Assembly: GCA_016214895.1 (NCBI GenBank) | Contig: JACRMR010000008.1 | Coordinates: 1-64,000, forward strand | Direction of reading: 5' to 3' | Source: a candidate division KSB1 bacterium | GTDB lineage: Bacteria; Electryoneota; RPQS01 | Length of the DNA stretch: 64,000 nucleotides | Shown here: positions 60,297 to 64,000 of the stretch, piece after piece | How the letters are laid out: the number at the start of each line of letters is the position of its first letter | Position numbering within the stretch: position 1 is the stretch's first letter | Translations under genes and position numbers: made by a program | Notes under the pieces: generated by a model | What the model saw: the letters and a program-made list of their open reading frames with translations, nothing else | Told to the model about the DNA's origin: nothing | Database searches by the model: none

Positions 60297-60689
60297 ATGG
60301 ATCGCATTTCGAATTGGACGCAGGATGACCTGCGCAAAGACATCCCGACCTTCAATCCCGGCGACACGGTAAGTGTCTGGGTTCGAGTGATCGAGGGCGA
60401 CAAAGAGCGTTTGCAGGCGTTTCAGGGAACGGTCATCGGCCGCAAGTCGTCGGGGCTGAACGAGTCGTTCACGGTGCGGAAGATTTCGATGGGAGTCGGC
60501 GTGGAGCGTGTGTTTCCGTTGCACTCGCCGGTGATCGCGAAGATCGAAGTTCTGCGGCAGGGGCACGTCCGTCGCGCCAAGCTGACGTATCTACGGGGTC
60601 GCCGCGGGAAGAGCGCTCGGATTCGCGACAAGGCTCAGCAGAATGTCGGCGGCGAGCCGAAGGCGAAAGCCGGGGTCGCGGCTGCCTAA
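60297..60689 (+). CDS. rplS: 50S ribosomal protein L19
   Basis: A 130-aa protein. [93 protein letters not shown] is unmistakable. The last 20 residues are Ala/Lys/Gly-rich. It ends the trmD operon, 10 nt before a GC-rich hairpin. Confidence 0.97.
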
Positions 60690-60698
60690 GGGGTAGCA

Positions 60699-60720
60699 CG
60701 CGCGGTCAGCAGGCCGCGCG
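60699..60720 (+). terminator. GC-rich hairpin after rplS
   Basis: CGCGCGG (60699-60705) pairs with CCGCGCG (60714-60720) over 8 nt. No T-run follows, so it may only weaken read-through from rplS toward the riboswitch. Confidence 0.4.
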
Positions 60721-60737
60721 GATTGATCGTCCACAAC

Positions 60738-60858
60738 AGCCGGTGTCCGCCTTGGGCGGAAGAATAGGGAAGACGGTGTGAATCCGTCGCTGACCCGCAA
60801 CTGTGAAGCTCGTTTGAGGGAACGGGCGAAGCCAGGAGACCTGCCGGGTGTGAGATTG
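60738..60858 (+). promoter_or_regulatory. Cobalamin (B12) riboswitch aptamer
   Basis: The conserved elements are all in order: CCGGTGTCC near the start, AGGGAA (60767-60772), GGTGTGAATCCGTCGCTGACCCGCAACTGT-type core (split here: GGTGTGAATCC at 60775-60785, CTGACCCGCAACTGT at 60790-60804) and the B12 box GCCAGGAGACCTGCC at 60830-60844. It senses adenosyl- or methylcobalamin. Bounds are approximate. Confidence 0.92.
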
Positions 60859-60887
60859 TTCCTTCGGAGTTGAGGCGATAGTGGAGG

Positions 60888-60907
60888 CTCTCCGCGGATG
60901 CGGGGAG
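60888..60907 (+). promoter_or_regulatory. SD-sequestering hairpin of the riboswitch expression platform
   Basis: CTCTCCGC (60888-60895) pairs over loop GGAT with GCGGGGAG (60900-60907), which contains the ribosome site GGGGAG 4 nt before ATG 60912. This arrangement would block translation when B12 is bound (inference from the common Gram-negative design). Confidence 0.7.
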
Positions 60908-60911
60908 TTCA

Positions 60912-61466
60912 ATGATGCAGGTGGTTTCCGGGCCGGGGCGTACGCCGCTGATGCTCGCGCGGGTTGCCGCTTTTGTGGCGGTTGGCGTTGTCGGCGGATT
61001 GGCGCTATCAACAATTCCGAATGTTGAGCTGGTGACGGCGATCTGCTTTGCGGCAGGCTACTTGCTTGGCGCATGGGCGGGATTACTTACGGGTGCGTTG
61101 GTGGAACTCATATTTGCCGGATTTCATCCCATGGGCAGCTCCATGGGTTTTTTGTTGTTGTCGCAGATGTTGGGGATGGCGGGCGCCGGTCTGACGGGCG
61201 CGCTCTCCCGGCGCATTTGCGGGCCAGCTACGGGCCGTTGCTATCTTCTGGTCCTCGTGTCGTCTGCCCTGATCTCGACCGTGTGGTTTGATGTCTTGAC
61301 GAACCTGGCCTATCCCGCGTCGGTGGGATTTGTGGGGATGGACCCGCGCGTGTACGCGGCGGCGGCTTTGCCGTTTGCGGCGATTCACATCGTTTCCAAT
61401 CTCGCGGTATTTCTGGTGATTGTGGCTCCGCTGATGCCGCGACTGAGAAAGGCGCTCAACTGGTGA
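60912..61466 (+). CDS. ECF transporter S component, probably for cobalamin
   Basis: A 184-aa inner-membrane protein with about five to six transmembrane helices. The pattern PNVELVTAICFAAGYLLGAWAGLLTGALVELIFAGFHPMGSSMGFLLLSQMLGMAGAGLTGALSRR matches ECF S components, which bind vitamins and dock to a shared EcfAAT module. The cobalamin riboswitch directly upstream indicates a B12 or precursor substrate. No EcfA or EcfT gene is in the window, so it may use a shared module elsewhere. It overlaps the next gene by 4 nt. Confidence 0.85.
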   Translation: MMQVVSGPGRTPLMLARVAAFVAVGVVGGLALSTIPNVELVTAICFAAGYLLGAWAGLLTGALVELIFAGFHPMGSSMGFLLLSQMLGMAGAGLTGALSRRICGPATGRCYLLVLVSSALISTVWFDVLTNLAYPASVGFVGMDPRVYAAAALPFAAIHIVSNLAVFLVIVAPLMPRLRKALNW

Positions 61467-63247
61467 AATTCAGAGTCTTGGTGCTGATCGCATTGTTGGC
61501 GAGCCCGCAGGCGATGCGGGCGCAGGGGCCAGTCCTGACCGCTCGCACGGGACTGACGTGGTCCTACGAGGACTTGAGCGACTGGCTGCGGCGCTATCCG
61601 GGGATGTATGTGCAGGATTACGGCGTGCTGGGTGCGCCGACGGTAATTCAACCGTGGGGCATGGCCCCGTGGTTAACGGGTGCGCGGAAGGATGGGATTT
61701 CGCAAAGCCGGGTTGGCGATGGACTGTACGATTCAAATCTTCAGCCACCGGCGGAATTGGACAGCCTCGACTTCCAGTTCGGAACGGACGGCGTGGGGCG
61801 GTTCTCGGAGTGGACGCGGACGATTCCTTCCGATTCACCGTACACGGAGCTGCAGATTCGCGAGGGCTATTACAACTTCGGGTCCGTTGATCTCGCTCAC
61901 GGCCAACAGATCTACGGTCGGTCGGCGATTGAGCTTACCGGCCGCCTGGTGTGGTACGACGGCTTACGGCAGGGCGTCAGTGATTCTCGATTCAATCGGC
62001 TGCGCGGGCGATACCGGTTTCACCTTGGACGGCGGATCGCGAGTACGATTTCCTATGGCGGATCGAGCGTACAGGCGAACTCGCAGATCGAGGCTCGCGG
62101 CGCGCGTAATGAGCGTGAAGAAGGTGCGCTGACTCTGATGCAGGCGGACAGTTTTCGGACGGCGCTCAATCCGCGTTTGAGTTGTTATATACGTCGTGAT
62201 CGGGAGCGCTGGAATTCGGCTTTTAACGCGCGAGAATTGGTGCGCGGCTGGCAGGTCTCGGCGGATGCAGACTATCGCGCGAACCGGCTCACGTTGATGC
62301 ATGAGGGCAGCTATGCGGACCTGCGTTATCCGGGGATCGGCGACTATACCGAGACGACGCTCGACCTGCGCCTCGATGATCGCCTGGTCCTGGGTCGTGT
62401 GAACTTGCAGGCGACCGCCGAAGCGCGGCGGGCCGATGTGTCATTTGTGGCGTCGGAAGCAGAGTTCGGTTGGCTGTCGAATGCCCGTGTGGAGGGCGAT
62501 GTCGCGCTGTTGCAGGGCGTAAGTTTGACAGCGGCGACGGGTTACCATGAGCACGGCGCGCCGTCCGCATGGCGGGGTACCCGTTATCGCATTGCAGATC
62601 GCCCGCTGCTGATCTCGCGAGAGTTTTCGGATCTGGATCGGTATTATGTTGCGCGGATCGACGGTCACGCGCCCGGCGGCATTGATCGCTTGTTGAATAG
62701 CAGCGTCGGCGCTAAATGGATGCGGGGGACGGCAGAATTCGCGGTCCGGTTGCTCACGGTGGATCGGCGCGGCGCCTTCTCGAACCAGTTTGTACTGCGC
62801 GGCGACACGGTCACGCTTGCGTATGCGCGCGGCGGCGATGCGGATCACCTGGGCGCGGCGAGCGATTTCGACATGCCGGTGAAATTCGGTGTTCGCGTGC
62901 AGGGGTCGTGCTTTACCGAGCTCGATTCGCGGGAACCGGCGCGCGCACGGGAACTCCGGGGTATCGGCCGGGTGTATTTTGAGCGTGACTTCCTGACGGC
63001 TCCGTTGACGCTCCGCAGTCATCTTAGCTATGAGCATATCGGCAGGCGGCGGGCGGTTTCGGATATTGCGGATCAGCTGCTTGGGCCGACTCATCTGGTG
63101 GGTTTCCGGCTGTCGGCGACGATTCACGGCGTAACCTTGGTCTGGGGAGCGGACAATCTGTTGGCGCAGCACTATTATGTGATTCCGGGATACTTGATGA
63201 TCCGCAAGGAAGAATATCTTGGTGTGCAATGGAGACTGTGGCTGTGA
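61463..63247 (+). CDS. B12-regulated outer-membrane receptor-like barrel with a degenerate TonB plug
   Basis: A 594-aa protein, start GTG 61463, with a signal peptide (residues about 1-20, ending AMRAQ). Residues about 28-110 look like a worn TonB-receptor plug: DLSDWLRRYPGMYVQDYG matches 'DLLRRVPGVxVRDxG', ARKDGISQSRVGDGLYD sits where 'VLLDGxPLN' is expected, and LDSLDFQFGTDGVGRFSEW where 'IERIEVxxGPxSxLYG' belongs. A barrel of some 18-20 strands follows, ending in YLGVQWRLWL. A second, normal TonB receptor gene follows with a 4-nt overlap. It may be a partner or an alternative B12 receptor. Confidence 0.75.
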   Translation: MKFRVLVLIALLASPQAMRAQGPVLTARTGLTWSYEDLSDWLRRYPGMYVQDYGVLGAPTVIQPWGMAPWLTGARKDGISQSRVGDGLYDSNLQPPAELDSLDFQFGTDGVGRFSEWTRTIPSDSPYTELQIREGYYNFGSVDLAHGQQIYGRSAIELTGRLVWYDGLRQGVSDSRFNRLRGRYRFHLGRRIASTISYGGSSVQANSQIEARGARNEREEGALTLMQADSFRTALNPRLSCYIRRDRERWNSAFNARELVRGWQVSADADYRANRLTLMHEGSYADLRYPGIGDYTETTLDLRLDDRLVLGRVNLQATAEARRADVSFVASEAEFGWLSNARVEGDVALLQGVSLTAATGYHEHGAPSAWRGTRYRIADRPLLISREFSDLDRYYVARIDGHAPGGIDRLLNSSVGAKWMRGTAEFAVRLLTVDRRGAFSNQFVLRGDTVTLAYARGGDADHLGAASDFDMPVKFGVRVQGSCFTELDSREPARARELRGIGRVYFERDFLTAPLTLRSHLSYEHIGRRRAVSDIADQLLGPTHLVGFRLSATIHGVTLVWGADNLLAQHYYVIPGYLMIRKEEYLGVQWRLWL

Positions 63248-64000
63248 GGCTGTTGTGGTACATGGCGGCGCTGCTCGCGCTATGGCAGGATGCGGTGCCG
63301 CAGACCGGATCGCGGTTGGTCATCAGCGTGTCCAATGAGCAGGGGGTCGCGGTGAGTTCGGCGACGGTAAGTCTGTTTTCGCATGGCGAGGCGATCAGTT
63401 CAGGGAGCGGACGCGCGGTATTTGACGAGCTGGCGGCCGGAGTGTATCCGGTTGAAGTGAGGTGTGCGGGCTACGCGGCGGGGGACACCGTGATCGAGGT
63501 CCGTGCCGGGGAGCAGGCGGAATGCGTGGTGCGTCTGCGAGCATTGTTCATTCTGCCCGTTGTTGAGGTGACCTCGGAGCGACCGGCGGGTGTAACGCGC
63601 AGATTTGGACGGCAAGCGATCGTACAGAGCGGAGCGCGGGATCTGGCCGGGTTTCTGCGAGCGGACGCCGGACTGGAAACTCGCGATGACGGCAGCGGGT
63701 CGGTGGGGGCGCGGATTGGCGGGTCGAATTCGAATCAGGTCCTGGTTGTCGTTGATGGGCAGCCGATCAACCGTGCGGGCGGCGGAGAATCAGATCTTAG
63801 CGCGGTGCCGCTTGCGGACATCGCGCAGATCGAGATAACGCGGGGCAGTCGGATCGAAAGCGGGAGTGACGGGATCGGCGGAGTGATCAACATTCAGACG
63901 CTGAGCGCGGCTGAGGGAGCCCGTACGTCGGCGACGCTGGCCACGGGTGAGACGGCCACGGAGCTGCGGGTTCAGCGCGGTGGAGCCTGGCGCGGACTGC
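63244..64000 (+). CDS. TonB-dependent receptor (BtuB-like), 5' part, cut by the window end
   Basis: The frame is open from GTG 63244 to the window edge (252 codons). A signal peptide is followed by a carboxypeptidase-regulatory-like domain (RLVISVSNEQGVAVSSATVSLF to VYPVEVRCAGYAAGD). The plug follows: LAGFLRADAGLETRDDGSGSVGARIGGSNSNQVLVVVDGQPINRAGGG, then DLSAVPLADIAQIEITRGSRIESGSDGIGGVINIQT. This plug is intact and typical of BtuB/FecA-like receptors. With the riboswitch it points to cobalamin or cobinamide uptake across the outer membrane. The barrel lies beyond the window. Confidence 0.88.
   Translation, partial: MRLLWYMAALLALWQDAVPQTGSRLVISVSNEQGVAVSSATVSLFSHGEAISSGSGRAVFDELAAGVYPVEVRCAGYAAGDTVIEVRAGEQAECVVRLRALFILPVVEVTSERPAGVTRRFGRQAIVQSGARDLAGFLRADAGLETRDDGSGSVGARIGGSNSNQVLVVVDGQPINRAGGGESDLSAVPLADIAQIEITRGSRIESGSDGIGGVINIQTLSAAEGARTSATLATGETATELRVQRGGAWRGL

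Follow-up and report, generated by a model that had tools for sequence, protein, structure and literature searches.

Many B12-requiring Gram-negative bacteria possess BtuB but no BtuCDF, and the inner-membrane route of B12 uptake is mostly unknown in these organisms (PMC6072759). Where BtuCDF is lacking, a Gram-negative bacterium may use BtuB together with a different B12 transporter of the inner membrane, for instance BtuM (PMC6072759). Structures are available for two further systems with components resembling those discussed here, namely ECF-CbrT (6FNP), the B12 transporter of Lactobacillus delbrueckii, which takes both cobalamin and cobinamide (PMC5997447), and the BtuB-BtuG complexes of Bacteroides (8BLW, 8P97 and 8P98) (PMC10404256). 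The window, that is the whole 64,000-nucleotide stretch of DNA analysed here, carries near its end an operon that combines elements of these systems. All evidence is drawn from sequence and prediction, and on this basis we consider it probable that the operon serves riboswitch-controlled uptake of B12 (corrinoids) by a CbrT-like ECF route, with a BtuB-fold barrel, referred to as BAR, as the partner of the S component. The PMC papers searched yielded no report in which an ECF S component is linked with a TonB receptor or a barrel, and none of the terms outer membrane, barrel or TonB appears in a survey of the S-component fold (PMC11109136). The sequence-only reading of this DNA had suggested a possibly undescribed B12 uptake arrangement; this applies to the pairing of S component and barrel, for which we found no description, but not to the use of BtuB together with a transporter other than BtuCDF, for which BtuM is a precedent (PMC6072759).

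The operon is preceded by a complete cobalamin riboswitch aptamer (RF00174, forward strand, 60724-60862), which matches the full model with 84.4 bits (gathering score 31.5) and is the only cobalamin riboswitch in this 3.2 Mb genome. The expression platform is a hairpin on the same strand (60888-60907) with the arms CTCTCCGC (60888-60895) and GCGGGGAG (60900-60907), the 3' arm of which overlaps the Shine-Dalgarno sequence GGGGAG of the S gene. All 11 sequences compared (the window and 10 others) retain the stem, in which both arms differ at three positions, with C-G replaced by T-A at positions 3 and 5 and by A-T at position 8, the least regular position, which is unpaired in two of the 11. Both the complete riboswitch and the hairpin sequestering the Shine-Dalgarno sequence had been recognised in the sequence-only reading and are confirmed here. 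When B12 is scarce, the Shine-Dalgarno sequence of the S gene would be released and the operon translated. A cobalamin riboswitch is present in 38 of the 39 genomes of the phylum. Among 29 newly fetched riboswitch loci, a count that excludes the window's own locus, which was recovered again, and 13 further table rows, a relative of S-BAR, of BtuB or of the propeller lies beside the riboswitch in 28, and the remaining locus ends at a contig edge. Five marinimicrobial pairs of S component and barrel are adjoined by a BtuB relative in opposite orientation, which has a B12 riboswitch of its own.

Four genes follow the riboswitch, encoding the S component, BAR, a BtuB-like receptor and a BtuG-like propeller. 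The first three had already been named as S component, 594-aa barrel and TonB-dependent receptor, and all are present; the claim that they are joined throughout by 4-nt overlaps holds for S and BAR, whereas BAR and the receptor overlap by 19 nt if translation of the latter starts at the ATG (63229) and by 4 nt only with GTG (63244) as the start codon. The receptor and propeller genes again overlap by 4 nt (ATGA, L002:5385-5388). The contig (G000:C8) continues past the window, and the sequence beyond 64000 was read for btuCDF; none follows. A canonical BtuCDF 3' of the operon is ruled out, the next genes being that for the BtuG-like propeller and trpS, scpA and scpB. At the other end of the operon, the S gene lies directly 3' of rplS (60297-61466 for the two genes in the window), an arrangement also seen in L053, L054 and L099, the last from a genome that has no barrel 3' of S. 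This distribution of gene orders suggests that the place beside rplS may be an old position of the S gene.

The BtuB-like TonB-dependent receptor (719 aa, forward strand) extends from 63229 or 63244 to G000:C8:65388, past the window end. Called intact in the sequence-only reading, it has an N-terminal carboxypeptidase-regulatory-like domain, a TonB-box-like stretch, a plug and a barrel, the Pfam matches to plug and barrel being above the cut-off. TIGR01779 (TonB-B12) is its best family (E = 2e-34, 119 bits), but the equivalog cut-off of 599.7 is missed, and the receptor is therefore called BtuB-like. The gene for the propeller (421 aa) lies entirely beyond the window end (G000:C8:65385-66650; L002:5385-6650), and the protein is classified by its family profile, which matches BtuG1 (8blw_B, E = 1.7e-17), 3dsm (BtuG2, 2.4e-8) and 8p97_B (5e-8). 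Other YncE-like propellers are possible relatives as well, since the best match of the profile is the surface-layer propeller 1l0q (4e-27). No lipobox is seen in the propeller encoded beside the window, and its tail resembles a T9SS sorting domain (Por_Secre_tail, 19.5 bits, below the cut-off of 27). The BtuG-like propellers of relatives at L059:2599-3651 and L115:11285-12316 lack a sorting tail, and their N termini are lipobox-like. Perhaps a single propeller family makes use of two ways of surface anchoring, by a lipobox-like N terminus or by a T9SS-like tail.

The S component (184 aa; 60912-61466, forward strand) is CbrT-like according to its family profile. Built from 17 relatives, this profile finds CbrT in the PDB (6fnp_A, E = 1.1e-7) over nearly the full length, followed by RibU with an E-value of 0.03. 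The relation to CbrT is remote, as a PDB search with the single sequence returns chance matches only; its match to PF12822 (E = 0.0023) is below the cut-off. With regard to the ECF module, the window's genome encodes one EcfT on the same contig (G000:C8, 96.9 kb; 73 bits, above the cut-off) and an EcfA-like pair, two adjacent ATPase genes on another contig (G000:C23), one of which is the genome's best match to TIGR04520 yet scores below the family cut-off. A different EcfA candidate at 91-93 kb of G000:C8 was rejected, since it has two ABC domains in one frame and looks like an ABC-F protein. EcfT was not found in G028, G029 and G035, fairly complete genomes of relatives in which the operon is kept. 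A FecCD-type (BtuC-type) permease has no match in the window's genome, with controls matching in 13 of 14. Elsewhere in the phylum, FecCD matches are weak, not exceeding 47 bits, and cover part of the profile, and we take them to be probable relatives of other permeases. The window's genome possesses B12-dependent enzymes, with two methylmalonyl-CoA mutase genes and MetH, and CbiC, the one gene standing for corrin synthesis, was not found in it. Because a FecCD permease and CbiC are not detected while EcfT, an EcfA-like pair and B12-dependent enzymes are, we regard the S component together with a shared ECF module as the best candidate for importing B12 across the inner membrane. The sequence-only reading had linked an ECF-type inner-membrane part to outer-membrane receptors, and this link holds and recurs in the phylum and beyond. 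An alternative, which we regard as unlikely, is that the substrate of S-BAR is not B12 but a relative of it, such as cobinamide or another tetrapyrrole, and that B12 uses an inner-membrane importer that was missed. It would fit the distant similarity of S to CbrT and the occurrence, in several families, of the riboswitch at BtuB with S-BAR having none; however, in the window's family the riboswitch lies 5' of S-BAR, the window's genome shows no FecCD permease, and CbrT itself takes cobalamin and cobinamide alike (PMC5997447).

BAR (594 aa; 61463-63247, forward strand) is an outer-membrane barrel of the BtuB fold with a plug and without a recognisable TonB box. A presumed signal peptide covers approximately residues 1-20, and no Pfam or NCBIfam family claims the window's protein. 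The BAR family profile has one significant match in the PDB, BtuB1 of B. thetaiotaomicron (8blw_A, E = 5e-9), in an alignment that spans the plug and the first strands. The AlphaFold model (pLDDT 88.7, pTM 0.87) has E. coli BtuB as its best structural match (Foldseek 2.5e-24; Z 35.6, 2.5 A over 513 residues), in an alignment that spans residues 13-592 of the model and takes in plug domain and barrel, which argues that the plug has not been lost. The earlier description of an unassigned barrel with a degenerate plug was right about the barrel, but the fold can be assigned by model and profile, and what is lacking is the TonB box and not the plug. When N termini in the window's family are compared by eye, no TonB box is recognised before the BAR plug: mature BAR starts approximately where the BtuB plug starts, with about 15-20 residues between the presumed end of the signal peptide and the first plug helix, so that there is no room for one, whereas in the BtuBs of these operons an LPEVVV-type stretch precedes the first plug helix by about 25 residues. 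The barrels of other families have longer N termini, and the absence of a TonB box is less certain there. Based on sequence comparison and the predicted structure, BAR is most likely a BtuB-derived plugged barrel that has no TonB box. Its missing TonB box and divergent plug are what would be expected of a decaying BtuB duplicate that is translated and functionless, but we consider such decay very unlikely, as the frames are intact with invariant residues across 19 relatives, the fold is confidently predicted and BAR stays beside S in several phyla.

BAR matches are present in 32 of the 39 genomes of the phylum, and S adjoins BAR in 17 of the 18 BAR loci fetched from it, as a fusion in one. The other locus, L050, contains a second BAR paralogue without S (L050:6001-7815, on G027:C19), flanked on one side by a phosphoesterase-like protein that bears a sorting tail and on the other by a YncE-like protein. 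A scan with the S profile, using one genome per species, gave 56 loci, of which one ends at a contig edge inside S and 55 could be scored. Most genomes are MAGs, labelled in the record titles as Calditrichaeota, KSB1, Marinimicrobia, Latescibacterota, LCP-89, Zixibacteria, WOR-3, Krumholzibacteria and others. A barrel-sized or barrel-like gene lies directly 3' of S, or in the same frame, in 50 of the 55 loci, which belong to several FCB phyla; these are counts of loci and not of independent events, some of the 56 share contigs with loci of the phylum genomes, and L103, L111 and L118 are among those scored by protein length, position and end only. The overlap is exactly 4 nt in 20 of the 43 barrel-bearing loci with a separate frame of at least 539 aa. 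Two groups of marinimicrobial barrels are remote BAR homologues by profile comparison (E = 9e-15 and 5e-14). S occurs with no barrel 3' of it in five loci, L093, L098 and L105 (from records named Latescibacterota), L099 and L116.

In four loci, S and the following barrel-like protein form one reading frame (L106:1495-3798, L104:6959-9766, L110:6983-9313 and L113:4287-6209). The model of the L106 fusion consists of a helical part, confident for residues 10-180, and a BtuB-like barrel; the results of a fold search with it are filled by barrels. In all four fusions the junction of S and barrel contains a hydrophobic stretch together with an A-x-A site, which suggests that signal peptidase would cut the chain, and fusion is therefore no proof of a physical tether. 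The barrel does not always follow a B12 riboswitch, an association that the sequence-only reading had put forward for checking, as S-BAR occurs in L053-L057 without a riboswitch at the threshold used and without BtuB. For the same reason S-BAR could serve another substrate in these families. The broken-up operons also bear on the possibility that BAR serves the BtuB-BtuG complex as an accessory barrel, either scaffold or partner, and is tied to S by the operon only. This is unlikely in our judgement: BAR has no TonB box and lies beside BtuB-BtuG in the window's family, but in L053-L057 it remains with S and not with BtuB, the fusions observed join S and a barrel, and the recurring 4-nt overlaps are found between S and the barrel.

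We therefore favour a function of BAR together with S, since the bond between BAR and S outlasts that between BAR and BtuB in L053-L057, and propose the following route, the outer steps of which we infer from the homologues. The BtuG-like propeller would capture B12 at the cell surface, and BtuB would carry it through the outer membrane with energy from TonB. The CbrT-like S component would bind B12 at the inner membrane and, together with the shared ECF module, deliver it to the cytoplasm, as suggested by homology and by there being no other candidate. BAR would most likely be a dedicated outer-membrane partner of S, acting either as a TonB-independent corrinoid channel or as a hand-over station that stands in for a periplasmic binding protein and brings the corrinoid close to S. 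Against this proposal, a barrel that has a plug but no TonB box would be expected to be closed. A bolder version, to which we attach very little probability, has S and BAR assembled into one envelope-spanning unit: S, and not TonB, would dock on the BAR plug or be tethered to it, and would open the plug or take B12 directly from it, so that the ATP-driven ECF transporter would also drive passage through the outer membrane.

With a CbrT-like ECF route, uncultured phyla offer a testable answer for the inner-membrane step, and the operon supplies genes that can serve as markers of B12 uptake where bacteria are uncultured. It is unexpected that an inner-membrane subunit and an outer-membrane BtuB relative without a recognisable TonB box have overlapping genes, fused in four loci, and this makes direct coupling of the inner and outer membranes for a vitamin a testable question. 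Among the systems described, Caldithrix abyssi, a B12 auxotroph from a related bacterial group, also has a B12 riboswitch 5' of BtuB, but a BtuCDF route is predicted there (PMC5317091). BtuM of Thiobacillus denitrificans is likewise S-component-like, found in a Gram-negative, co-located with btuB and present where BtuCDF is not (PMC6072759). A cysteine that ligates cobalt is a further hallmark of BtuM. In contrast to BtuM, which works in an organism without an ECF module, the S component described here is CbrT-like, pairs with BAR and occurs with genes for EcfT and EcfA-like proteins. ECF-CbrT of L. delbrueckii shares with this operon a CbrT-type S component, an ECF module encoded in the genome and the absence of BtuCDF (PMC5997447). 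Here, however, the S gene overlaps, or is fused to, the gene for a BtuB-like barrel. L. delbrueckii is a lactic acid bacterium without an outer membrane, which accounts for ECF-CbrT having no barrel partner. Through its BtuG-like propeller the operon is linked with the BtuB-BtuG systems of Bacteroides, in which BtuB is also under riboswitch control and accompanied by the propeller BtuG (PMC10404256). Whereas ABC transporters act at the inner membrane and BtuG is a surface lipoprotein in Bacteroides, the operon described here has an ECF S component, BAR as an extra barrel and a BtuG relative whose tail is T9SS-like.
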